From: Pinguiococcus pyrenoidosus
Taxonomy: Eukaryota > Sar > Pinguiophyceae > Pinguiochrysidales > Pinguiochrysidaceae
DNA length: 32,946 bases
Direction of reading: 5' to 3'
NCBI GenBank assembly: GCA_019677205.1
Contig: JAAMXY010001385.1
Span: forward strand, 1 to 32,946
Position numbers and translations under genes: made by a program. Below the pieces are notes generated by a model, which was not told the DNA's origin, searched no databases, and worked only from the letters and a program-made list of their open reading frames with translations. How positions within the stretch are numbered: the stretch's first letter is position 1; each line of letters opens with the position of its first letter. This document shows positions 15,088 through 32,946 of the stretch, one piece after another.

Positions 15088-18000
15088 ATGATTCTCACGG
15101 CGGTGGTCTTTCTTCTCGGCGCGCTTTCGGTCCAGTCGCAAGGTGGCGACCAGCCGGCAAGCAACTCCACGCAGATTTTTGCAGGCCAGCAGTACGGCGT
15201 CGCCAACGTCACGAAGAATGAGGAGCAGTACTTCCGCCTAGACAAGCCGGTTGACCAGATTGGTGACATAGAGATCCTCCTGCGTACTCTGTCTGGCGAC
15301 GCCGATCTGTACGTGTCGCTGAGCGTCGAGAAGCCCAACTATGAGAACAATGACTTCGCATCGAGTCTGTACGGTGACGATTTTGTGAGGGTAGCAGAGC
15401 TTGACTTCGACCGCCTCTGTGGAGAAGAGAGCTGCTGCACGGCGGACGTATGTCCCGTGTACATCACCGTGCGCGGATTCGACCCCTTGTCGACCTACTG
15501 GCTCTTGGCGTCCATGAACACCGACTGGAGCCGAGCGACGCCGCTCACGATCAACCAGCTCGTTTCTAGCTCCGTCCAAAGCAGCTCGTACAAGTTTTTC
15601 ACCTTCAACGCGAGCGCCGCCGACGTCGAGACCTTCCGCATCGTGCTAGACTCCGGCGCCGCGACCGACGTGGATCTCTATGTCATCGGGGGCCTGGAGG
15701 AGCCCTCCATTAACCACTCCCAAGACTCCGCGACCACCATCCTCGTGCCCGAGACGCTCGATATCGATCAGGACAGCCCCGCCTTCTGTGGCGCTTGTGT
15801 GTACTCAATCGCGGTCTATGGCTTCACCAACGGCAGCTTTACTATCACGGTGAACGCGAACGACACCGGAGAGGTGACACTGCTGGAAGGGACGCCAGTC
15901 CATGGGTCTGTGGTCGCGCACACTTTCAACTACTACGCATTCTTGAACAGCGATGCCAGGAACAAGATCACCATCGAGCTGACGTCGACGATGGGAGACG
16001 CCGACCTCTACGTGTCCATCAACGGGACTCCGACCACCGACGACTATAAGTGGTTCTCGATACGCTTCGGCGACGATTCTCTCGTCATCCAGCCCACGGA
16101 CCCCAACTACTGCAGCGATTGCCGCTACGTCATCGGCGTCTACGGCTACAGCAGCGCCGTGTACCACCTGGTGGTCACCACGACGCGAGACGCCGTGATC
16201 GAGCTGCCGCGCGGTCGGGCGCAATTCGGCGAGGTGAACGCCGGGGAGCTGAGATACTACTCGGTACGACCCAGCACGTCCAACGACGTGTTGCGGGTGA
16301 GTCTGACCCTCACGGACGGCGCCGCGGATCTGTTCGTGAACTGCGTCGACATGAACGACTCGCACCTCAATCGCACGTCCTACGGCTTGCCCGACCCAGA
16401 CGACCCGAGTTCCTACCTTGCGTCAACCTCGGGCCTGTCCAGCATAAAGAGCCTGGAGGTGGCGCAGCACGACGAGCTGGGGTCCAACGTCTTCCTCATG
16501 GCAGTGAAGTCGGCAGGGACAGCGCACTACAGCATCCTGGCGTCCATGGAGGATGACGTGGTGTACCTGCGCTCCGGCGTCCAGCTACGCCAGTACGTGA
16601 GGGTGGGCAAGACGCAGCACTACGCGATCCCCGTGCCCGCTGACTCCTCGCTGCGAATCATCGTGACGCCCCTCACGGGAGATCCAGACGTGCTGGTGAG
16701 CGTCGAAGAGGAGCTGCCGGGCTGTGAGGTGGGGGCCTATGGCGTCGGGGAGCTCTGCTCCAACTACACGTGGATGTCCGCGACCACCGATGTGGACACG
16801 GTGTTCATAGACGCCGCAAACCCATGCGGTGGACTGCCGTCCATGCAGATCTCACCCGACTGCAACTACGACTCGCTGCCGGCCGGGCCCGCCTACATCG
16901 GCGTCTATGCGTATGGCTTCGTGGACAGCACTGGCGAAACACTCGCCGGCAGCGACTCCGACTTTCTCATAACCGCTAGCGTGGAGGAGGCGACGCATGT
17001 GCCTGTGACCTCGCTGATAGCTGGGATACCACAGGTGGTCAATACAGTCGTTGGTACCGTCTGCTCCGAGCGGGACGCCACGTCTGGGCAGTGCGCCGAA
17101 GGCGTCTCCAAGCAGGTGGCGTACTTGAGCTTCCACTTGACCTCGTCACTGCTGACGGAAGGCATGGCCCTGGCGCTGGACTTCGAGTACCAGAATGCCA
17201 GTGTGGGCTACACGGCGAGCGCGTTCCTCTCAACCTGTGCCACCGACAGCTGCGACGAGGCCGACAAGCACCCTTACACGCCGACCAGCGAGTTCCAGCT
17301 CCGTCTGGACCGCCGCTCGAACGAGATGCTGGTGGTGGCCACCGACGCGGCAACGCTCAGGTGCGAAGAGCTGCAACCCTTCACTGGCTGCACCGCCTTC
17401 GTGGCCGTCGTGGCCGACACAGCAGCGGCTTTCGGAGTTACCCTGCGGAGCAGCGATCGAGTCACCGTGCTACCTTGTCCCACGGCGGACGTCCGCCACG
17501 AGCATCGCCAGGACGGGTATGGCCGCTTTGACGTGACCGCCGGCTTCTACGAGATCTGCAGTCAGTGGGAGCAGAGAGTCACGGTCGAGACTTGCACGGC
17601 GGAGTCGGCGTTCGTGGTGANNNNNNNNNNNNNNNNNNNNNNNNNNNNNNNNNNNNNNNNNNNNNNNNNNNNNNNNNNNNNNNNNNNNNNNNNNNNNNNN
17701 NNNNNNNNNNNAGCCAGCGTCTGCTGCTGCCGAGCTTTGCGTGGCTTCGCCGGATCCGAACGGGAAAACGAGAAGCGTGCTTATAGCCAACGAGCCCGAC
17801 TCGGCGCCGAAGAGCATGCAACTCCTAGGTCCGAGTACGCCCTACGCCGTCGAGCTGGAGCGCTTCTATGACGGAGAGTCCTTCTCGGCGACCCTTTTGT
17901 CCTTCTCGCTCAACAACGCGGGCGCAGATTACGACTTCTTGTACCTGCACTGGACGAAGCCGCTCCTGAAGCTACCCGGCGTGGAGATCCCGGTTGTGGC

Positions 18001-18715
18001 CCAACAGGTCAAGTACGAGGTCGTCCTGGCCAAGACCTCCGACTTGGCCGCAGCGGAAGCCACGCTGCGCACGAGATGCGGAGTCCGCGTTGCACAGGGA
18101 TCTGCAGATATTCCTAGCCTTACGAGCAAAGGGCTGACAGTGTGGATGAGTTACAACGAGCACGCGGAGGCAGATGTACGAGTGGACTGGTATTCCATGG
18201 ATCTCTCCAGGTCGGAGCCGGTCCAGGTGGCCTTGATTGCCACGTGCGACAGCTCCTGCATGGCTTCCAGTGCCGCGAATGCCGGACAGCCGAGGGAAGG
18301 CTTTCCCAGCTGCTCCACTGAGGGGCACTGCAGCGAGAAGGCCGTCATGGGCACCATCACCATCACCATCGAGCATGGGGCCGTCGACGACGACAGCGAC
18401 TACAGCGGCGACGACAAGAGCAGCGGGGGAATGAGCGGTGGCATGATTGCGCTGGCAGTTATCGGGAGTCTCTTCGGTGCAGCCTTGCTCGCAGCCGTAG
18501 CACTGCTGGGCGTTCGTCATGTTAGGGGCGCACCGGATGGTTACCAGGGTATCGACGTGCATCTGTCGGACGACACGCATGCCATCGGAAGCGCCATTCG
18601 TGACAAGCTGTCGGAGTGGTGGGACTCCTTGCGGGGCACAGCTACCCGAGGAGACTCGAGCTATGTGCACACGGGGATCCCAATGGCCACTTTCAACAAC
18701 CGAGACGTGATCTGA
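15088..18715 (+). CDS. Secreted type I membrane protein with repeated PPC-like beta domains
   Basis: The gene opens with a signal peptide (ILTAVVFLLGALSVQSQ, residues 2-18) at ATG 15088 and reads 844 codons to the 91-N gap. After the gap the same protein resumes in another frame (from about 17714) for 333 residues to a TGA at 18713-18715, so the gap length is wrong or hides an intron. The ectodomain has at least five repeats of 100-130 residues with the signature of bacterial pre-peptidase C-terminal (PPC) beta-sandwich domains: a Y/F-F-x-F/L strand, then GDADLYVS (variants VDLYVIGG, GDADLYVSI, GAADLFVN, GDPDVLVS), then a YxIxVYG strand. Paired cysteines and many N-glycosylation sites fit an extracellular location. 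One transmembrane helix (roughly 18445-18510, GMIALAVIGSLFGAALLAAV) precedes a tail of about 65 residues containing a Tyr (SSYVHTG). No protease domain is visible, so it may be an adhesin or receptor. Confidence 0.82.
17621..17711. other. Assembly gap (91 N)
   Basis: A run of N interrupts the PPC-domain gene. The coding frames on either side differ by one base if the run is taken at face value, so the true missing length is not 91, or an intron lies inside it. Confidence 0.95.
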
Positions 18716-20433
18716 GCCTCGGCACATGACCACCGCGTTTGATGTGCAGGCTGGAGCTTGGTCGCCGCGACAGGTATTGGTCGCGCTTCATTAGATAACA
18801 TGGAAGACAAGGTGGATAAAGGTCGCAGTGTTTTGTGTCTTCCTTTCCGGAGGTCGATGGCACTCCGCAGCAGCATGTCTTCCGACCTGGGAAGACGCAA
18901 AGAAAAACAGCTCTGCCGCGTGGCTCCCAAGGCACACCATAGGTTGCGCAAAGACGTCCGCGGCTTTTCCTGCATCAGGAAGCCAGTCCTCTCCCCCCAC
19001 CAAGACGCGTCCCTCGTGGTCTTTCATTTGGTCGGGGTGCTCGGTGTCGCTCGCTATCACAGCGGAAGGACTGTGGAAGGGTGCGGGCGACCAGCAGGGC
19101 TAAGGCGGGGCCGCGGCATCGAGACAGGAGGGAAGCCCAATGATATGCGGCGCCGCCCTCCAATACCGAGTGACTTCCGTGAGAGATGCGCAGCACATGG
19201 GCAGCACCTGATCCAGCGTCCCGGGGCCAGATTTTCAGGCAACGATTCCGCGCGACCCCCCCTTCCCCCTCCCTCTCATCGTCAATATCGAAGTTGTCAC
19301 TCCGCTTCCGCACCGCACCGCCACCACCACTCGCAGTGGCATCGCGTGGCGCCAGCTGCAGGCGCTGCTGCTCAGGCAGCCGCCACGCAAGCATCTGCAA
19401 GAGAGGCAGAGGCGCAGAGGCCTGCGGCCGCCGGGCCCCATTGCAGCGGATATCGCCGAATTCTGCGACCAGCGAATCTTCTGCCATGTCGACCAGTCCG
19501 GCGCTCCGCCTCAGCCAGTTTCTGTCCTCAGCTGTCGCACGGTGGCCGAGGGGCATGGGACCGGCGGCAGGGCCGCCATGGCGCTGGAGGCGGCGCGATC
19601 GCGTCGAATCGGTGCTGTACAAAGCGACAGGTCCTGTGGCGCCGGCAATGTCGTTGGCGTTTCGGCGGAATGCGATGCCCGACTCGGCAGGTTTTTGCCT
19701 GCAGCACTCGAGGGCGACCACGGGCAGGCTGGGACGGCGGCCGAGGCGCCGGCAGGGCGGCGTTACTGCAAACGCAGGCGGAAACGCGCGAGACCACCGG
19801 TGGACAGAGAAGATACTGCGACAGAGACGGGGTTGCGCAAGCAGCTGATCGAGAACCGAGCGCCGCTCAGCTGACTGGTCCGGGTGTTTCGCGGTGATTG
19901 GCGATCCGTTACGGCAGTCTACCGGGGAACTCCTCTGTGGCAGGTCCCGGGGACGTGAGCCCTTTGCAGGATCAGATCTTTATAGGATTTCCTGGCAAAG
20001 TTGAGCAGCAGCAGTTTCTGGATCGGTTTGAATGGCTTCTCCCCGTCGCAGATCCGAGCGCCAGGCTGCTTTACATCGCGTCGCTTGCCGGGCTGGAGGC
20101 TTGCAAGGTCCCGCTGGAGGGGGACAGTCCGGATCGGGAACTTCATCCTTGACGTCCGGACTACACAAAAAGTCCACGGCTTCCATTCCTGATTCCGATT
20201 CCGCGCCAGATTGCAGATTGGATTCAAGTCCTCAGGCTCGGGATGCTTCTCAGCGCAAGTCCTTCACCAAGCAGCCGCGGCGTTTCGGAAGTGGCACGGA
20301 GCGTTGCAGAAGAATGAGAGATCACCAAGAAGCTTCAGTGCTGTCATCCCAGAAGGGCTCTGAGCATCCTGCGATCAGCCGCGAGAGGAGGCGTAAATGC
20401 ATCCGACGGAAGCTCTTATCAGCAGTTGATAGC
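18716..20433. other. Unresolved 1.7-kb region, no gene I can assign
   Basis: Between two secreted-protein genes. Three stretches read somewhat like protein but resemble no family I know, and the strands compete. On the minus strand, 19487 back to about 19160 gives MAEDSLVAEFGDIRCNG, later a charged RKRSDNFDIDDEREGEGG. On the plus strand, 19970-20152 (after a good CTTTGCAG acceptor) gives DQIFIGFPGKVEQQQFLDRF and continues to a stop at 20150-20152. Also on plus, about 19240-19874 stays open with fairly high GC at third positions. They could be exons of a small split gene, a decayed gene, or chance. I do not call a CDS. Confidence 0.35.
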
Positions 20434-23400
20434 ATGAGGGCAGCACGCGCTCTGCTGCTCGCCTGGATGATTGGGGATAGCCTCCTCATTTCGTCACAGG
20501 CAGCCAATTGCACCGACTTCGCGCCGATAGCGACGGATTCCTACTGGTATGAGCCCGATCTGCCTCCAATGGCCATTCCTGAGCATGTTGTCATATGCTT
20601 CTCGCATGACGCAGGACGGAGGTTGCCGTATGCGGATCATGTACGCAAAGCCCGGTCTGTGGGTATTGCTTGTCTACCTTGCAGTGCCTCGAAGGCAATC
20701 CCACGGGCCCGGGCGACGAGAAGCCATGCCCAAACTGGGTGTTCCAGGACGCCTCGTGCCCGTCGATTCCCAACTGCGCAGCACACACCTCCTGTCAGCA
20801 CTGTGCTGAGGATCCGGAATGTGCGTGGTGCGCGTCGGGGAATCTCTGCACCACGATTGCCGACGTCTACAGCTCGGACTGTCGAGGGATCGTCTTCGAG
20901 GCGCCGTGTCCTGCGGACTTCGTAGCAGGTACTTCCTGCACCGAGGCAGTGACACGACGGAAGTTTGCGCTGCATGTACTGACGGCTCTCTCCGCTTGCA
21001 GAGAATCGTATAGTGGGAAACTTGGTCATCCAGGCGGATGCACTGTTCGGAGGAGGGGAGCTAAAAGTCGACGGTCCCGGCCAGAACGGAAGTCTTTTCT
21101 CCCTTCATCTGGACAGCACCGAGTTTCGCCTGGTCTCTGCGGAGGGAATCGTTCTAGAGGCAGGGGAATCCGACGCTGTAAACGACTACGGCGGAGACGT
21201 AAGCATCAGAGGTGGAGATGGAACGAATCCGCAGGGAGGGAAAGGAGGATCTCTGGTCTTCGAGGGGGGAGCCGGCCTCGGCCAGGCCGCCTTCGGGGGT
21301 GACGTGGGGACTGGTGGAGACGCTGGTCTGTACGGCGGCCGGTCGATCGAAGGAAGCGGTGGAGCCAGCATTCTCGAGGGAGGTTCCAGTCAGAGCGGGG
21401 TGGGCGGCGACGTGCTTGTCCAGAGCGGCAACAGCCTGCATCAACGCTCTGGAGATGTCACAGTAGGCTCATCCAGTAGCCCGAACGTCCACGGCTCCGG
21501 CGATGTCCGCGTCCGGAGCGGCGTGGCCGAGCAGGGAAGCTCTGGGAGCATCTCCATAGAGAGCGGCTCGGGCACCACAGACCAGGCCGGAGGGATTCAC
21601 CTGGCGGTAGGAGCAAGTGGTCTGGGTCCCGGCGGGGCACTAAGCATGAGGTCAGGCTCGTCGCTAGCCGAGGGATCTCGAGGAGGAACGATAAATCTCC
21701 TTACAGGGTCCAGCAAGTCCGGCGCCGCGAGCGGGTCAATCCTGCTCGAGACAGCAAATGCGGGAAGCCTTGGCATGTCAGGTGATATTACGCTCCGAAC
21801 GGGTACAGCGAGCGGCGGTGGTTCAGGCTCTCTCCTCGTCGCAAGTAGCTCGGCCCGGAATGGCGCTGGTGGCTCAGTAAGCGTGCTTGTCGGAACAGGC
21901 GATTTCGGCCAAGGAGGATCAGTCGTGGTGACAGCTGGAGATACCGAAGCTCCCAGTGCTTCGGGGGGTGACGCTGAAATTGTAGCCGGAAGCGCACTTG
22001 AAGCAACACAGAGGGGAGTGGGCGGAACGCTTTTCCTGGTCGGAGGCGCCTCCCAGGCGGGTGAGGCAGCGAATGGGGGGTCCGTCAAGCTCCAAGGTGG
22101 TCTGTCGTCGACAGGCACGGGCGGGGAGATCTTCCTCCAAAGCGGTGTGGGCAGCAGCTCGTCGTCTGGAGGTCTCACGCTGGCCACATCCAATGCCGGG
22201 CTCCTTGGAACCAGCGGATCAATAGTGATAGCCAGCGGAACTTCGTCTTTCGGGGCATCTGGCTCTGTGCGAGTGTCTTCCGGCGACGCTTTAGGCGGCG
22301 ACGGGGGGGGCATACAGCTGCTGGTCGGCTCCAGTTTGACGGGCTCCGGTGGCGAGATCGAGATAAGAGCTGGCCACTCCTCGAATGCGTCTGAATCCGG
22401 AGGAGGCATCTCAATCGTGGGTGGCACGAGCACCGGAGGGAAGACGGGGTCGGTCCTTATAGCGTCCGCGTCTGGTGTATCGTCTGGAGATGTCACCATC
22501 TCGACCGGGGATTCGACGGCCGTGGAGAGTGGCGGCGTCACGATTGCCACAGGTTCATCTCCCGCGGGCGCGGGAGACATTTCGGTAGGCGGGGGGGACG
22601 GAGGAGCAGGAGACGTCACGGATGTCATCATCGCTGCTGGAGGCAGGAGCACGCCTGGTCTCGGTGGAAGTGTTCGTCTGCGGGGCGGAGATGGCAGAAG
22701 TGAGACTGAGGGTGCCGGCGGTGGCGTTGATCTTGAGGCGGGCGCGGGCTTCGGATTGGAGCTGAATGGCTTGGCTGGCAACGGTGGGGCCATCCGCGTA
22801 GCGGGCGGAGCGGCAGTAGACGGCTTTGGGGGGGATATTCTGCTGCAGGGAGGAAAGAGCGAGAACAACTACGGAGGCTCCATCGAGATTCTCTCGGGCT
22901 CCGGTGATGAAAGCTCCAGCGGAAACGTGGTGGTCTCCTCCGCCAATGCTGGCGTCGATGGCACGAGCGGAACGATCAGAATTACGACAGGCACGTCTTC
23001 CGTTGGCGCTTCCGGAAACGTGGAGCTTTCGGTAGGTGAAGGTGGTGGCGAGGGCGGGAACGTCCTGGTTGTCGCCGGCAGAGGCAATGCGGCGGACGGT
23101 GGGCACATCTCGCTTCAAGGCGGTGACAATACAGCCAAAGCGGGAGCCGGTGGCTCCATCGTGCTCTCTGCGGGAACGGGTCTCAGTGAGGACATAAGCG
23201 ACGGTGGCAATGGCGGCCATGTTGCTCTTCAAGGGGGCAGGGCTGCTGGCATGGCGAGGCGGGATGGTGGCGGAGGCATTCATATTTCTGGCGGAGCGTC
23301 TGCGCTCGGACGGGGAGGTGACTTCCTCGTAGTCACAGGCGGCTCCCAGTACGGGCCAAGTGGGCATGCTACAATCGCCACGTCCACGGCGGGCCAGAGT

Positions 23401-26400
23401 GGCGTGAGCGGTGACATCCAGATGTTGACCGGTGCCTCGTCCGCGGGTTCCACGGGATCTGTTGTTGTCCAGACTGGGGAAGCAATCAGAGGCAGTGGAG
23501 GGTCCATGTCGCTGCAGGTCGGCGACGGTGATACAAGAGACGGTGGGGATATCTCCGTCCGAGCGGGACGGACAACTGCAATGGCACAATCAGGCGGCCG
23601 CGTCCAGATCAGCGGCGGAGAAGGATCAAGCAGTCACACCAACGATGGTGGCGACGGAGGGAACGTGGACATCGCCGGAGGGGAAGCGAAGGGAGCCAAT
23701 CTCAACGACAACGGCGGAAATGTTGAGGTCTTTGGGGGCCGGGCATACGCAGGCTACGGGGGATCATTGCGATTCACGAGCGGCCTTGGAACTCAGACCT
23801 CGAGTGGGTCAATCCTCATCAACTCGGCGAACGCTGGTACGGACGGGGTCAGCGGGTCGCTGGCGCTGCTCACGGGCACCTCGAGCTCAGGCCAGACGGG
23901 ATACCTTCAGCTCGCGACCGGGCAAGCACAATCCGGAAAGGCGGGTCACATCAGTGTGCGCGTGGGCGAAGGGGATTCCGGCGAAGGGGGGCACATGGAG
24001 CTCTCCGCAGGACGCACGACGGCGTCTGCCACAGGGGGTTACATCTCTATCAGGACGGGATACAGTTCCTCCACGTCGAGCGGTCCCTTCTTTCTGCAGA
24101 CACCGAACGCAGGGGCTAGCGGCGTCAGTGGACAAATCTCAATGAGTACTGGCACAACAAGCACGGGCAATTCCGGCCAGATCACCTTCGGCACTGGCGT
24201 CGCGAGGGATGGGTCAGGCGGAGACATTCGACTCCGCGTGGGGACGGGCGATACTGGTGACGGAGGCGACGTCTTCATCAGTGCAGGACAGACGTCAGCC
24301 AAGCGGAGCACAGGCGGCTTCGTGGTCATAACGGCGGGGGAGGGAAGCAGCGACGATCAGTTTGACGGAGGGGATGGTGGCAAGGTCCAGATCTTTGGTG
24401 GAGCAGCCCAAGGCGGATTCGAGGAGGACGACGGGGGAAATGTCGAGATAGCTGGTGGATACTCTCGGATTGCCCGAGGCGGGTCCTTCCTGCTGCGCAC
24501 TGGATACGGTGAAGAGACGTCGAGCGGAATCATCGACATCTCCACCGCCAATGCTGGTGCAGAAGGCGTGTCTGGTGACATCGACTTGTCGACTGGCACA
24601 AGCAGCGCTGGCGACTCCGGCGTTATCAACATTACCACTGGCGTTGCCAACGGCGGGAGAGGGGGCTTCTTTCACGTGTTTGTGGGGACCGGCGATTCCG
24701 GCGTCGGCGGGGACATCGACATGACATCAGGGATGACAACGGCGTCAGCTAGTGGAGGAATCATTGCAATGCGCACGGGCTACTCCAGTGCAACAAGCAG
24801 TGGTTCGTTGTTTCTGGACACAGTCAATGCTGGGAGGCGGGGGGTCAGTGGCTCCATGTTCTTCACAACCGGCACGACAAGCGAAGGCACCTCGGGCAAA
24901 GTGAAGATCGAGACCGGCTATGCCAACCGTGGAAGCGGTGGTAACATCGAAGGCCTCGTCGGCACGGGCAACCGAGGTGACGGTGGTGACATCATCTTCA
25001 TAGCCGGCGAGGCCGAGGCACCCACAGCCTCAGGCGGACGCGTCACGATCGCAGCTGGTCTCGGAAGCAGCTCAAACGGCAACGACGGAGGCAATGGAGG
25101 TGATGTGGAGATTTTTGGAGGGGAGGGGAGAGGCCGCTCCGAGACGCGCGACACCGGAGGAGACGTCCGGATTGTCGGAGGCCTATCCGACGGCGCTTCT
25201 GGTGGAAACCTCGTGTTCATGTCAGGTTTCAGTACCCCGACTTCGAGCGGCCTGATTCGAATCCTGACTCAAGAGGCTGGCGACGCCGGTGTCTCGGGGC
25301 TCATCTCCCTCCAGACGGGCGCAACCACGTCGGGCGACTCCGGTGTGGTGGAGATTCATACTGGGGACGCCAACAGTGGGAAGGGCGGAAGCTTCATTGT
25401 AGATGTGGGAGCCGGTAACAGCGGCAACGGTGGGGATATCGTCATGGAGGCAGGCGAAACGCGTGATAGAGCTGCCGTGGGTGGCTCGGTGCGCATCACC
25501 GCGGGTCTCGGCAGCTTCGGATTGGTGAACCAGGACGGCGGAGATGGAGGCCCCGTCCTCATTGCTGGAGGGGAGGCGCTTGGTGACGATGATTTTGACA
25601 ACGGGGGCTCGATTGGCTTAACCGGTGGCCAAGCAGCAAACGGCTTCGGCGGCTCATTGCTCTTCGCCACGGGACGAGGGCTCGCATCATCAAGCGGTCA
25701 CATGATGCTGGAGACGAGCAACGCCGGGACCTCCGGGGTGAGTGGTCGCATAGACCTGCGCTCGGGAACAGCGTCGTATGGTGCATCTGGCACCATTGCA
25801 ATGCGGACTGGCAGCGCCAGCATGGGACGAGCCGGTCACATAGAGCTCCTTGTTGGAACCGGGACAAGAGGAAGCGGCGGAGACGTGGTGCTCAAAGCTG
25901 GCGCTCAGCTGAGCCCGGGCCAGACCGGAGGCCAGATCGTTATGCAGTCTGGACACAGCGCCGCAGCGAGCTCGGGTGACATCCATGTGTCAACTCCTAG
26001 CGCAGGAAGAGCTGGCATCAGCGGGAGCATCGAGTTCGCCACCGGCACTTCTTCAGAAGGCGATTCTGGCAGGATTCTCCTAACCACAGGCGCCGCCACA
26101 GGAGACACCGGCAGAAGTGGGAACCTGGAGCTCTTTGTCGGGGCAGGACAGTCGGGCGATGGTGGGGACATTGTCATGCAAGCGGGGACCACGCATGCCA
26201 AAGCACAGTCCGGGGGCGACGTACGAATCCAAGCTGGCCGAGGAAGCTCCACAGATCGCAGGAATGGTGGCGACGGGGGGGTCGTTCGCATCGTAGGTGG
26301 AGAGTCCAATGGGGAAAGCGAGGGAGTCGATGCAGGTGGGGACATCTCTCTTACAGCAGGCTTGGCGACCGCTGGGTCAGGAGGAGACCTGGTCCTCCAG

Positions 26401-29400
26401 TCCGGATTTAGCACGAGTACATCCAGTGGACGGGTCATTGTACAGACCGCGAACGCGGGCGTTGAGGGCGTCAGTGGGAGCTGGCAGCTCTTCACTGGTC
26501 ATTCCACCGCCGGGAACAGCGGGGAAGTCCAGATCTTCTCGGGAGAGGCCGTGTCTGGCAGCGGAGGCGGCATCAGCATTGGTGCTGGCGCAGGTGACAC
26601 CGGCAAAGGAGGATCCATCACGCTCTCCGCGGGAGACATTCTTGGCGATAGACGCGACGCCCTCCAAGGAGGCGATATTCACATCGCAACGGGCTATTCA
26701 GAGTGGTCATCATCCGGAGCGCTGACCGTCCGGACTGCTAACGCCGGCGAGGGAGGAGCGAGCGGCTTTGTTCGTCTCCAGACGGGTACAGCTTCGGAAG
26801 GTCAATCGGGCGAAGTCGTCCTCTCCACAGGGTCCGCTGCGCGCGATGCCGCTGGCAGCATAAGCATTCTTGTTGGCAGCGGGGAGAGGGGGGAGGGGGG
26901 TGGCATCCTTGTCGACGCAGGAGATGTCCTTGATTCTGAAGATGACGCAGGCGGCTCCGTATCATTGGTAAGCGGATACTCGGCCTTGGCTTCCAGCGGA
27001 GGCATCGCCCTCCGGACGAGGAGTTCCGGAAATTCAGGGGATAGTGGCACTATACTGCTGTCCACTGGACGAGGCTCAGACGGCAGTGGGAAAGTGGAGA
27101 TCTTTACAGGAAGCTCGTCGAAGGAGGCAAGTGGGGATGTCAGTGTCCGCGTTGGCCAGGCAACCTTGAGCGATGCAGGAGATGTGCGCATTCGAGCTGG
27201 AGACACAATAGCGGAGGGCGGCATTGGCGGGTCGGTTCTAGTCTTTGGAGGAGACAGTCTGAGCGACGAGGCTGCGGGGGCCAAAGGTGGTGCAGTAGAG
27301 ATTCGTGGAGGGGCTTCTCATGGAGAAGACAAGGACACGGATGTTGGTGGAGACGTGATTGTGAGTGCTGGCGCCTCCGCACGTGCATCAGGAGGTTCCG
27401 TGTCCCTTCGGAGTGGTCCTGGCAGCCGATCGTCCAGCGGTCGCGTGGAAATCAAAACGGTCGACGCTGGGCCCGACGGCCAAAGTGGCGGGATTAGCCT
27501 CTCGACTGGCATCGCCACCGAAGGCGACGCTGGGACCATTACCATCACCACTGGGTCTTCCACGGATGGCGTAGGAGGAGGGGTCTTGCTTAGGGCCGGT
27601 ACAAGTTCACTCGGGAGAGGCGCAGATGTCTCTATATCTGGTGGAGATACGCTGGATGACTTCATTGCGGGTGGTGTGGTCCTCATGTCTGGTCATAGCA
27701 GCGAAATGACTAGTGGGTCCGTCGAAATAAGAACGTCTCCGGGTGGCGAAGGTGGCGAGAGTGGTGGAATTGAGATTCGCACAGGGACAACCTTCGCCGG
27801 CTCCTCCGGCATTGTGGAACTGCTTTCGGGAAGCGCATCCTCTGGGAGGGGGGGGGCGGTAATCCTCTCTGTTGGAGCTGGCGACCAGGGCGACGGAGGT
27901 CGCCTTCTTTTCAAGGCAGGGGACACGTCCTCCCCTAATCGAGGCGGAGACGTCGACATCTTTGCCGGAAGGTCTCCAGCGTCGGGAGGAGGTATCTTGC
28001 TGCAAGCCGGCGGTGGCTCGAGCTCGCTAGGGGGGACAGTTGACGTCCAAGGTGGTGCTTCTTCGGGGAGGACCGGGGGCCACGTCCGCCTGACGACGGG
28101 ATACGGTGCCTCCTCCTCCAGTGGTAGCCTTTCGATGTCGAGTGCAGTGGGTGGGCGTTCGGGCAGCTCGGGGGCTGTAAAGCTTCTTTCTGGGGCTTCC
28201 CCGGATGGAGCTTCTGGTACGTTGATGATAGCTACCGGGGAGAGCCTGGCGGACGCCGGTGGGATAAGCGTTTTCCCTGGGGCCTCAGACGCTGCTCCGG
28301 GGGCACAATTGCACATGTCTGCGGGGACATCCCAGGCGGAGACGGGGGGCGACCTCGTGCTGCGCAGCGGAGCCAGTGCGGAGGCTTCTAGCGGAGCAGT
28401 GACGATCAAGACGGCACCGGGGGGGGAGGAAGGTGACAGTGGCTCTGCTACCGTAACGACCGGGGATGCTACATCCGGCTCCTCCGGTGATCTTGTGCTA
28501 CGCACTGGAAATGCAGAGGGTGGCACCGCTGGGCGAATTGACCTGCAGATGGGCACATCGGTTGACGGGGTCGGCGCCACTGCTTCCATATCGGGTGGGG
28601 CTGCGACCGGACGAAGTGCAGAGACGGGCGGTGGCATCATCATCTCGACCGGACACTCGGAGGCGACCACGAGCGGCAGTCTTTCCATCTTCACAGCGAA
28701 TGCCGGGCTGGGCGGCCGTAGCGGAAACGTTCTGATGTATACGGGAACTTCTTCGTCGGGGCCATCGGGACAAATTCTGCTGTCTTCTGGCCGGGCTGCC
28801 GGCGGAAGCGCAGGCGGCATATACCTCACGGTCTCCGACGGCGACGAAGACACGGGCGGAGAAATACAGCTGCAGGCTGGCGAAAGCGCTGGAGGCCAAG
28901 GAGGTCCTCTTCGCGCGAGAGGCGGGACGGGTACCACTGGCGGATCTGTCAGCCTTCAAGGGGGCGGGGCGAGTAAGCTGGGTGGTAGCATTACCATCGT
29001 CAGTGGGCCTGGTGGTTCAGGCTACGCGTCGGGGTCCTTGGGGCTTTCTACAGCAGTCGGCGCGTCGGCTGGAGCGAGTGGCGGTGTGTCTGTTTCTTCT
29101 GGCACCACGGAGTTTGGGGACGCAGGCGAGCTGAGCCTCGCAGCAGGGGCAAGCACGAACGGCTTGGGCGGTGCGGTGAACGTGAGAGGCGGCGATGGCT
29201 CTATAGGAGGCTCGCTCATTTTCGTTGCGGGATCCTCTGACGCAGGATCGGGGGGGCAAATTGAGATCTCTTCAGGCACCAGTGCGACAACGGCGAGCGG
29301 AGATGCCCGTTTGAGCACGGCCGCCTTGCTTCAAGAAGGCTCTTCGGGTCGACTGCAGCTATTCTCTGGAGCCTCCTCAGAAGGCGACGCAGGGAGTGTT

Positions 29401-32400
29401 GTCGTCCGTGGCGGAACTGGGGGTTCGGCCGGTGCGCCGACTAGCATTCTAGGAGGCGCAGGGTCAGCAGGCGCGGGAGGCTCTCTTACCGTGCTTGGTG
29501 GAGACAGTGCGGAAGAGACAGGCGGACACCTTCGACTGCAATCTGGATCATCTGGGTCGGGGCACCCCTCCGGGATCACGTCCGTCGGATCTGCTGATCA
29601 GATGGCCGAAGGGGCGTCTGGCAATTTGCGGCTCTTCACCGGCGGGACACAGTCGGGAGACGTCGGGAGAGCAAGCCTTGAAGGCGGAGCCTCAGCTAGC
29701 GGTCGAGGAGGCCACGTCTCAATCTCTGCGGGTCGGGGTTTCTTGGCGGCGGGAGATCTTCTGCTTTCTGGTGGAGACGGTGGCGAAGCATCCGGAGGAG
29801 ATGTCACGATCTTGTCTGGCAATTCAGACGACGCAGAGCTTGCAACCGGCAGCGTCCGCGTCGAAACAAGCGCAGCGTCTGCCAGCAGCAGTGGCGTGCT
29901 GGGCTTGTCCACGGGGTCATCGCAAGGTGGGACCACAGGCGAGGTGACCGTCTCCACCGGGCCGGCTGCGTCGAGCCGAGCCGGGCATCTTCTACTACAA
30001 ACAGGCTCCAGCGGAGAAGGACCTGGCGCTGATATTAGTCTTCGAGCCGGGCAATCCCTGGCATCAACAGGTGGCGCGCTGGTACTTCGCAGTGCCACGG
30101 GAGAGGCAGGCAGCGGCCAAATTAACGTACAGACCGCTGAGGTATCGGGAAGTCGACCAAGCGGTAGCTTGCTTCTTGCAACGGGTGGAACGGCATCTTC
30201 GCGGAGTGGTCTGGTCGAATTGACTACAGGACAATCGGTCAGTGGACCCAGCGGTGCGGCGGTGATCTCTTCAGGTGCCTCTGGCGTTGCCGCCGGAGCA
30301 CTTAGCATTCTTGGCGGGAAGAGCAGTGGGGCAGCCGGGCACGTGTACGTCTTTGGCAGTGCCAGCGAGACAGGAGATGGCGGTGACATTCGTCTCACTG
30401 GCGGAGACGCCGAAAGCTACGATGGAGCGTCTCGCGGAGGCTCTGTACATCTGGCAGGCGGGGATGCCATGGAGGGGGGGTCCGGTGGAATGGTCCAAAT
30501 CACAAGCGGATTTGGCGGGCAGGGCGGTAGCGGCGCGGTCGAGATATCGACCGCAGAAGTCAACGGAGAGTCCTCGTCGACGACTGGAGAGATCGTGCTT
30601 CACACGGGGAATTCCATGGCATCTTCGACGGGAAGAATTAGTATCAGTACAGGCGTCGCGCTCGGCGCGGACGTGGCCGGTGGGATAAGTCTTTCTGTTG
30701 GTCCTTCCCCGAACGAAGGTGATGGTGCCGACGTTTCCATCACCGCGGGCAGCCTGATCTCAAGCGCCGAGGCGGAGCGGCTTCTCCCAGCGAGCCTCGC
30801 AGATCGTTTTTCCGATGATGACAAGTCTGATCCATTTAAAGCCGGGTCACTGCTCTTCGCTGCCGGTTCGAGCACGGCTGGAACTGGTGGATCTGTTGTC
30901 CTTCAGTCTGGTGCTGGTGGGACGAGTCACGCAGCCGCTGGAAACCGCCACACGGCCGCAGGGAAGGCTGCAGACTCGGGGGAGGTTCGGATCCTCTCGG
31001 CGTCTTCTTCCGGGGGCCAAGGCGGCAAGATTAGCATCTCAGTTGGGAGCGGCACGCACGGCAAGGGCGGAGGCCTTGTCCTCCAAGCCGGCGGACAGAC
31101 TACGCTTCCCGATGATTTTGACAACGATAAGGTCTCTTACGCCGGAGGAGACGTGAAGATGTCGTCGGGCCACAGCCAAGGTAGCAGCAGTGGGGACATA
31201 GCCCTCCTGACCCCAGACGCTGGGATGACAGGTGCTTCCGGCAGCATCCGGTTGGAGACTGGAGGAAGTTCCGCCGGAGTGACTGGTAGCGTGGTTATCA
31301 AAACGGGAGATCGTGCCTTTGCCAAAGGATCTGCGTCGACAGATCGGTTCGCGAGCAAGAGTCAAATGTCGACAGGATCGATTCTCCTAAGCACGGGCTC
31401 GAATACGAGTACCGATTCAGCGGAAACCATCTCGGGGAGCATCTCCCTGGTGGCAGGAAGCTCCCTCAAGGGTGGTGCGCTGCGGCTATACTCGGGGCGG
31501 GGCAATTCCACAGACGACAAAGGACTGGGAGGAGCAGTGGATATTCAGAGTGGCACAGGGTATGCCGCATCTGGAGTTTCTATTCGAGCTGGTGCTGCGA
31601 TGGCGTCGTCCGCATCTCTTCTTCTCGCGGCAGGAGACACAAGCGGCTCGGAAGCTGGAGGCTCGGCTGGCCTATCAGCTGGGCGGAGCCTCTCTGGGAC
31701 GGGGGGGAGCTTGTCCTTGGCGGGCGGTGGGGGGGATGGGATACAGCGTTCCGGAAGCGTCTCGATCACCTCTGCTCCATCGGCGTCAGCGTCTTCTGGC
31801 AGCTTGAGCTTGACCGCTGGAAGCGCGACTGCGACTGGTGGAAGCATCTTCGCGTCTGCAGGAGATGGCTCGCTAATGGGAGGAAATCTGACCGCAAAAG
31901 CTGGGGCGAGCGCCGATGGGTTGGCCGGAGCCATAAGAGTGGAGAGCGGAAGTTCTGGGGCGGCGGCAGGAGGACGCATCGAATTGCGTACGGGCTCGGG
32001 ACAAACGGGCCCAGGTGGAGACTTCACTCTTGAGACCGCCGCGTCGTCGTCTGAAAGGGCTGGCCATATCACGCTGTCCGCTGGAGACAGCTTCCTATCC
32101 GGCACGGATGTGTCTCTTCAAGCTGGCTCGTCGTCTGGCGCGTCTAGCTCAGCTGGTCGCATGTCTTTGGCTGCCGGAGATGCCTCGGGAGCAGGCAAAG
32201 GCGGAGAGGTTCTTATCGCTGGAGGGGCGTCCACCGAAGGCAGCGGCGGGGACGTGTCGATTCGGGGTGGCGGAGCCAACTCGTTGGATGGCACAGGCGG
32301 TTCGATCGTTTTACGTCCAGGGGAGGGAGCCCTTGGAAGCGGTGTGAAGGCCGTCGACTCAAACGGTGAACGGAGGGCGTCTTTTGACAACGTCGGTGTG

Positions 32401-32946
32401 AGCCTTGATAGCTCCACTTCGGGGGGGATCGTTCTGACGACGAACAAGCCAGACCAGCATGGGGTTGCTGAAAACATCATCGGCTTCACTCTCAGGGATA
32501 CGTCCAAGGGCGAAGGTCCTAGGACAGACAGGGAGGTTGGCGCTGAAGATCAGGACAACGAAATTGACGTCAGGCTGATGAATGTAGATGGCAAGGACAC
32601 GTTGGTCAGCTCGGTCGAAATACAGGCCACTCAGGTCATCTCTTCGTCGGACAGTCGTATTAAGAAGGACTTCGAAGACGTCGACGTGGACGACATCTTG
32701 GAACGCATGCTTCAGGTTGAAATTAAGTCGTATGGGTACACAGATGAGTGGCGTCGTGTTCGCAACATCGAGGACCGCCGAGTGCGTGGTGTCATCGCTC
32801 AACAGCTGCATTCTGTGTTTCCCGAGCGCACGGACATCCTGTCACAATACTCTCTCCCGGACAAAGACTTCTCTATCGAGGACTTCTACCAGGTCGACAA
32901 GCAAGGGTTGACGTTGGATCTAATCGCTGCCATGCAGGCACACGCC
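20434..32946 (+). CDS. Giant secreted PSI-PSI / glycine-rich beta-repeat / peptidase S74 protein (partial at right edge)
   Basis: CDS join(20434..20546, 20615..20928, 21002..>32946), at least 4124 residues. The introns are 68 bp (GTATGA...CAG) and 73 bp (GTACTT...CAG), with phase kept. Residues 1-23 are a signal peptide (ALLLAWMIGDSLLISSQA). Two cysteine-rich PSI domains follow: residues 43-86 (Cys 44, 47, 53, 56, 62, 76, 86) and 91-136 (Cys 92, 98, 101, 107, 110, 116, 127, 136). From about residue 203 to 3916 the protein is short Gly/Ser strand repeats of the form GG-x-hydrophobic-x-hydrophobic-x-x-G, in one 11.9-kb exon with no in-frame stop. From about 4025 comes a peptidase S74 intramolecular chaperone domain. 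Known S74 domains trimerise beta-helical phage tail spikes (and MYRF in animals), then cleave themselves off. I infer a secreted, trimeric, self-processing fibre or wall protein. Cysteines are essentially confined to the N-terminus. A signal peptide and introns mark it as a nuclear gene and not a prophage. Confidence 0.85.
21181..32320 (+). repeat. Coding array of glycine-rich strand repeats with 276/447-nt higher-order blocks
   Basis: Hundreds of degenerate 12-15-residue units, e.g. SSGSILINSANAGTDGVSG and GGDVSIRGG, each offering one short beta strand between glycine turns, as in parallel beta-helix fibres. A recurring landmark (SSG-x8-NAG-x2-GVSG-x5-TGT) begins at 23800, 24076, 24520, 24796, 25243, 25690, 25969, 26422 and 26710. 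The spacings are 276, 444, 276, 447, 447, 279, 453 and 288 nt. A second landmark, the acidic loop DGGDGG or a variant, sits at 23644, 24364, 25084 and 25534 and only in the long blocks. Before 23356 and after about 27000 the regularity fades. The nucleotide sequence of the copies is well diverged, so this is an old or selected array and not a recent satellite. Confidence 0.85.
32644..32946 (+). other. Peptidase S74 (intramolecular chaperone, auto-processing) domain
   Basis: The segment starts at SSDSRIKKDF. In this family the Ser of S-D-x-R-x-K attacks the preceding peptide bond, and the Lys five residues on completes the dyad. Here they are Ser4025 (32647-32649) and Lys4030 (32662-32664), both intact. 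Further hallmarks follow: a helix leading to IKSYGYTDEWRR, then RGVIAQQLHSVFPE (family G-x-IAQE-x5-P) and LTLDLIAAMQAHA, where the window ends. The roughly 100 residues before the cleavage site (32344-32643) leave the glycine repeat and look like the trimer-forming stalk seen in phage spikes. Most of the domain is present; only its last helices are missing. Confidence 0.88.

Follow-up and report, generated by a model that had tools for sequence, protein, structure and literature searches.

Self-cutting S74 chaperone domains are known from two settings, the termini of viral fibres and the interior of transcription factors of the MYRF type. In the phage endosialidase, neck appendage and T5 fibre the corresponding chaperone domain (CIMCD) is C-terminal and released, and the dyad residues and self-cutting mechanism of S74/ICA domains used here as reference were taken from the same reports (excerpts of PMC3828593 and PMC8326128). 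Fibres of polinton-like viruses are also large and modular, with S74 and up to 3.9k residues, but they often carry S74 at the C-terminus, contain laminin G or collagen modules, stand in a viral gene setting and, within the excerpt of PMC12220804, are not reported from ochrophytes. Here, we analysed a window (the whole stretch of DNA studied, positions 1-32,946) that is the entire contig C469 of the 23.7 Mb assembly (768 contigs) of Pinguiococcus pyrenoidosus. A giant gene is predicted on its plus strand (20434-32946) and runs off the contig end. With moderate confidence, we read its product as a host-encoded, secreted, modular fibre of an ochrophyte-like alga, built with virus-like parts and with an S74 domain that is internal in the chain. 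Like MYRF/MrfA, the window gene is eukaryotic, has its S74/ICA domain in mid-chain (as judged from relatives), a Ser and a Lys five residues apart and a Tyr-x-Tyr motif. Unlike MYRF, its protein has a secreted-type N-terminus with PSI modules, giant repeat arms and no Ndt80-type match in the known part; an Ndt80-type DNA-binding domain was not found with Pfam in the 3978-residue exon-3 open reading frame (ORF; E up to 0.01) or in the 232-residue N-terminus (E up to 1). The phage CIMCD domains share the S74 fold and the dyad with the window protein, whereas in relatives of the window gene more repeats follow S74. No published description of such a secreted PSI-repeat-S74 protein was among the matches listed in our literature searches.

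The presence of an S74 domain, proposed in a preliminary description of this DNA, was borne out. Peptidase_S74 (PF13884) matched at 32647..32826 on the plus strand with 44.8 bits, well above the cut-off of 22, and the conserved region goes on to the contig end. The Ser-Lys dyad is intact: the predicted catalytic Ser4025 of the spliced protein (32647..32649, +), directly before which the cut is predicted from the mechanism in the excerpts of PMC3828593 and PMC8326128, and the predicted catalytic Lys4030 (32662..32664, +) show the five-residue spacing of Peptidase_S74/ICA. In addition, a Tyr-x-Tyr motif (32731..32739, +) aligned to Y615/Y617 of the cutting hole of MYRF, and both tyrosines are invariant in all 19 rows of alignment A1. 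The domain agreed with the S74 fold, its best match among solved structures being the MYRF/MrfA ICA; the S74 profile scored 65 bits against MYRF and 18 and 17 bits against phage chains in the PDB. Among PHROGs, the window S74 matched the phage tail-fibre family phrog_1980 (67 bits).

To place S74 within the chain, we used the 23 S74 proteins obtained in two protein searches (18 among 1145 candidates and 5 among 948); none of 1494 candidates was a giant-length relative. By script scoring, 14 of the 23 continue for at least 30 residues beyond S74, although these are not all independent, with P0018 and P0019 near-identical in their overlap. At least one repeat match follows S74 in 12 of the 14, and three or more, above every shuffle, in 10 (shuffle means at most 1.5). 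The clearest example is P0020 (916 residues), in which S74 at 413-474 lies between arms of approximately 400 residues with 18 repeat matches before it and 16 after. The other nine relatives were scored with 0 to 2 residues beyond S74 and speak neither for nor against an internal position; in several of them (P0007, P0012 and others) the alignment gives way to unrelated letters, read here as intron read-through. The script's rule for the end of S74 misses P0010 and relatives that diverge early from the alignment, and repeat counts in relatives and viral ORFs score non-standard letters as Ala or Pro. Among the 22 relatives covering the dyad site, Ser is kept in 21 and Lys in all 22. S74 is thus best read as internal in the chain, as is the ICA in MYRF; for the window gene this position is drawn from its relatives.

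Three predicted exons, all on the plus strand, splice at GT-AG into a single open frame of 4124 codons that reaches the contig end. Exon 1 (20434..20546) contains the start codon, a signal-peptide-like N-terminus (residues 1 to ~24) and the first Cys of PSI 1, while exon 2 (20615..20928) contains the bulk of PSI 1 and PSI 2, with the best Pfam PSI stretch at 20772-20888. The two GT...AG introns, of 68 bases (20547..20614) and 73 bases (20929..21001), were predicted in silico, and the giant exon 3 of approximately 12 kb (21002..32946) is open to the contig end without a stop codon. The frame extends upstream to an in-frame ATG at 20032, but we preferred the ATG at 20434 because the third-position guanine-cytosine (GC) content of 20032-20433 is only 0.53. 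The N-terminus is signal-like, as read from hydrophobicity rather than with a predictor: its hydrophobic core, with a best 15-residue mean of 1.81, precedes small residues. One later 19-residue stretch of the giant protein is also hydrophobic, reaching 1.65. PSI (PF01437) matched two stretches with 36.4 bits (cut-off 23.1), and the cysteine spacing 3-6-3-6 occurs twice, in keeping with the PSI pattern; all 16 cysteines fall in residues 26-136, the other 3988 known residues being free of cysteine. On these points the preliminary description, which had named a signal peptide, two PSI domains, joins at 20546/20615 and 20928/21002 and approximately 3700 residues of repeats, agrees with the present analysis, the signal-peptide label being a reading.

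The N-terminal arm (21190..32340, +) consists of Gly/Ser-rich repeats of approximately 15 residues, with an autocorrelation maximum at lag 15; part of the array also has a longer, higher-order period of 240 residues. A 15-residue profile derived from the same giant protein that was scored gave 196 matches in it, whereas 20 shuffles averaged 17.1 and reached at most 25, and 94 of the 195 repeat spacings were exactly 15. Exon 3 is estimated to hold approximately 200-240 repeats (with a length of 15 to 16 residues each, ~240 repeats would fill ~3700 residues). In alignment A3, three of 21 repeat segments were omitted, being shifted by one register. Adjacent 240-residue units have 47.5% of residues in common, but the same codon is used in only 39% of the shared residues counted, compared with a chance expectation of 28.5%; by these figures, the array looks old and kept at the protein level. 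Third-position GC is 0.60 in the window gene, 0.49 in each of the repeat genes on contigs C564 and C445, and 0.72-0.89 in ten other genes. A beta-roll turn measures approximately 0.48 nm, and if one repeat makes one such turn, the N-terminal arm would be on the order of 100 nm long.

The likely C-terminus was approached through three sister genes. These (L022:3-1835 on C564, L049:2-727 on C445 and L058:3-704 on C18) are open from contig base 2-3 in mid-repeat, and in each the stop codon follows one common domain; the assembly was broken each time by the repeat gene family. Ahead of this domain is a neck whose start resembles that of the neck ahead of S74 in the window (32287..32640, +; LRPGEG...GV), which aligned with 22% identity overall to the C18 row and with 7 columns invariant in four rows. 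The common domain matched phrog_18251 in C445 (5e-12) and C18 (1.3e-11) and weakly in C564 (0.0099). Furthermore, a profile of the three sequences found 21 related loci among 106 candidate viral-contig stretches (best E 2e-8, relative to those); these viral ORFs span 137-162 codons from stop to stop, the domain lies at the ORF end in 20 of the 21, and three that were tested matched phrog_18251 at ~1e-30. Against the PDB, the best match of the profile was the tail protein gp15 (E 0.005), which we did not rely on. The phage proteins of phrog_18251 (~140 residues, L059-L079), although related to the domains of C18, C445 and weakly C564, differ in being small viral ORFs that stand alone and have no known function. 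By its sister genes, the giant gene probably closes with a neck followed by a virus-like C-terminal domain.

The repeats also have viral counterparts. A two-repeat DNA pattern with 10 occurrences in the window and none in 100 shuffles was found in 56 viral-contig stretches; 11 of the 56 surrounding ORFs have at least 20 repeat matches, the remainder ranging down to chance level, and L085 and L135 have 50 and 35 matches compared with 3.5 and 2.0 in shuffles. Unfiltered BLAST with the algal repeats gave 382 bits for L085 (shuffles at most 160, reversed 210), 267 for L135 (125 and 168) and 225 for L090 (134 and 150), as well as 225 for the sister gene on C564 (133 and 166). Because low-complexity similarity contributes to these scores, homology of the algal and viral repeats is likely, not proven. 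A YadA-like or triple beta-helix check on a predicted repeat model of fair quality gave a match to one predicted uncultured Caudovirales protein (Foldseek E 1.7e-5, template modelling (TM) score 0.69 by query), and two weaker matches had TM scores of 0.36 and 0.47. L090 adjoins a phage major head protein and L085 adjoins orotidine monophosphate (OMP) decarboxylase/phosphoribosyltransferase and thymidylate-synthase genes; from these differing neighbours, viruses of more than one kind may carry such repeats. The proteins of L085, L135 and L090 have the same 15-residue repeat type as the algal gene but differ in having neither the S74 motif in the same ORF nor the algal header, and none of the viral ORFs with the two-repeat pattern in the 56 stretches carried an S74 motif. 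One viral contig, L091, has a long repeat ORF and an S74-like motif on the same strand in different frames. Searching viral contigs with alignment A1 yielded two loci, L050 and L051, of the same fibre ORF, which has S74 near its C-terminus and matches phage tail-fibre families; searches of these contigs with the window S74, alignment A2, P0020 or the C445 domain alone gave no match, nor did genome contigs searched with A1 and A5, repeat segments against PHROGs, or phage tblastn with S74, the C-terminal domain and the repeats. Because the sister C-terminal module is phage-like and similar repeats occur in virus contigs, kinship with viruses extends beyond S74.

Several observations weigh against a secreted fibre with an internal S74. 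C469 stops inside the gene before any stop codon, so that what follows S74 in the window gene lies beyond the contig, and a join of C469 to C18, C445 or C564 is conjectural. Among the relatives, P0016 and P0018 have no repeat match in the 34 and 48 residues after S74, P0004 (1 match) and P0015 (2) stay within their own shuffle maxima, and P0010, which falls outside the script's count, has approximately 35 non-repeat residues there. In P0011, from the ochrophyte Phaeothamnion confervicola, Ala replaces the catalytic Ser. The predicted repeat model reached a mean predicted local distance difference test (pLDDT) score of 73.7, which is fair, with strands not assigned, and had no Foldseek match in the PDB. 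As an observation in its own right, P0011 is a natural uncut form, if it is expressed. The preliminary description had seen a phage tail-spike plan with S74 at the end; in the classic form of this plan, S74 folds the trimer and is then cast off. S74 is often C-terminal in polinton-like virus fibres (excerpt of PMC12220804) and is so in the fibre ORF of L050, nothing is visible after it in the contig, and the short tail of P0010 would fit. We consider this plan quite improbable, since no stop codon is present at the contig end and repeats clearly resume past S74 in 10 of the 14 scored relatives, where the same repeats flank it on both sides; S74 as the C-terminal domain was provisionally rejected on the evidence of these relatives. 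It is unlikely that S74 trimerises without cutting, leaving both arms as one continuous structural fibre: P0011 lacks the catalytic Ser and an internal S74 would be a good register point, but the retention of the dyad Ser in 21 of 22 relatives and of Tyr-x-Tyr in 19 of 19 rows suggests selection for cutting.

That the gene is instead an endogenous viral fibre gene, from a polinton-like or giant virus, residing in the algal genome appears improbable. S74, the repeats and the sister C-terminal domain each have viral relatives, the third-position GC of 0.60 lies below that of the ten other genes, and the two nearest upstream ORFs have no Pfam match; set against this are the signal-like start, the PSI modules, the two predicted introns and the host-type genes farther upstream on the contig. 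Moreover, the excerpt of PMC12220804 reports polinton-like viruses with S74 genes for most eukaryotic groups, ochrophytes not being among them, and we found no viral ORF combining S74 with these repeats in scans that reach close relatives and exact patterns only (L091 has both, in different frames). An assembly or gene-model artefact, with the PSI exons, repeats and S74 coming from separate genes, is highly improbable: assemblies do break at repeats, as at four contig ends in this gene family here, and splicing is known as a prediction only, but a single ~12-kb open frame links the repeats and S74 inside one contig, relatives also combine the two, and the PSI cysteine pattern is preserved across the predicted splice joins.

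Under the favoured reading, a self-assembling extracellular fibre, the order would be signal peptide, two PSI modules, an array of 15-residue repeats (approximately 3700 residues), neck, S74/ICA, more repeats and probably a further neck with the virus-like C-terminal domain. Judging from its N-terminus, the chain would enter the secretory pathway; the internal S74 would trimerise and hold three chains in register, as is known for S74/ICA, and the repeat arms would fold as a beta-structured trimer. The Ser4025-Lys4030 dyad seen in the sequence would then cut before Ser4025. By analogy with MYRF and phage biochemistry, we infer that S74 acts as a trimerising, self-cutting midpoint, whose products would be two fibres, an N-terminal one that bears PSI and a C-terminal one capped at its N-terminus by S74; the two may separate or remain together. 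A role in cell covering, adhesion or contact is a weak suggestion. More tentatively, and as a rather doubtful extension, ochrophyte algae might possess a giant fibre family made wholly of virus-type parts (repeat shaft, S74 cutter and C-terminal domain) behind a eukaryotic secretion/PSI header, in which the S74 midpoint cutter turns one polypeptide into two different trimeric fibres. If true, S74 would have a further use, in a giant secreted by an alga and with a repeat arm on either side of the domain; virus-type fibre parts would then serve a eukaryote as structures outside the cell, and a single gene might give rise to two fibres.

The genome is probably that of a photosynthetic ochrophyte-like alga. 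The light-harvesting family PF00504 had 29 matches in it, tallied exon by exon. The nearest solved structure to the antenna protein of L025 was VCPI-6 (202 bits, compared with 161 for the runner-up), which we take to be a Nannochloropsis antenna protein, and the nearest chains to that of L023 were named LHCI, then CAC and ACPI, indicating no single group. The origin of the related S74 protein P0011 in the ochrophyte Phaeothamnion also entered this assignment. In the window, 6 of 12 other ORFs compared with Pfam had matches, all host-type (RRM, two protein kinases, DEAD helicase, EHD-like dynamin_N/DUF5600 and UPF0669), and the two nearest upstream of the giant gene (17741-18712 and 18758-19894) had none. 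A check for a polinton-like-virus neighbourhood, for which only the upstream side is seen, thus found host-type ORFs and these two unmatched ones. The final 200 bases of C469 matched only themselves among the genome contigs, and an overlapping contig was not found. At 15088-17871, an ORF of 927 residues has two UPF0669 (C6ORF120-like) stretches (PF17065, 53.5 bits). Near the end of contig C607 (L055:3715-4704), another open ORF combines a repeat stretch rich in Thr and Pro with a PSI module cut off by the contig end, and a 788-residue ORF of the tubulin-tyrosine ligase (TTL) family (L022:5414-7780) adjoins the C564 repeat gene.
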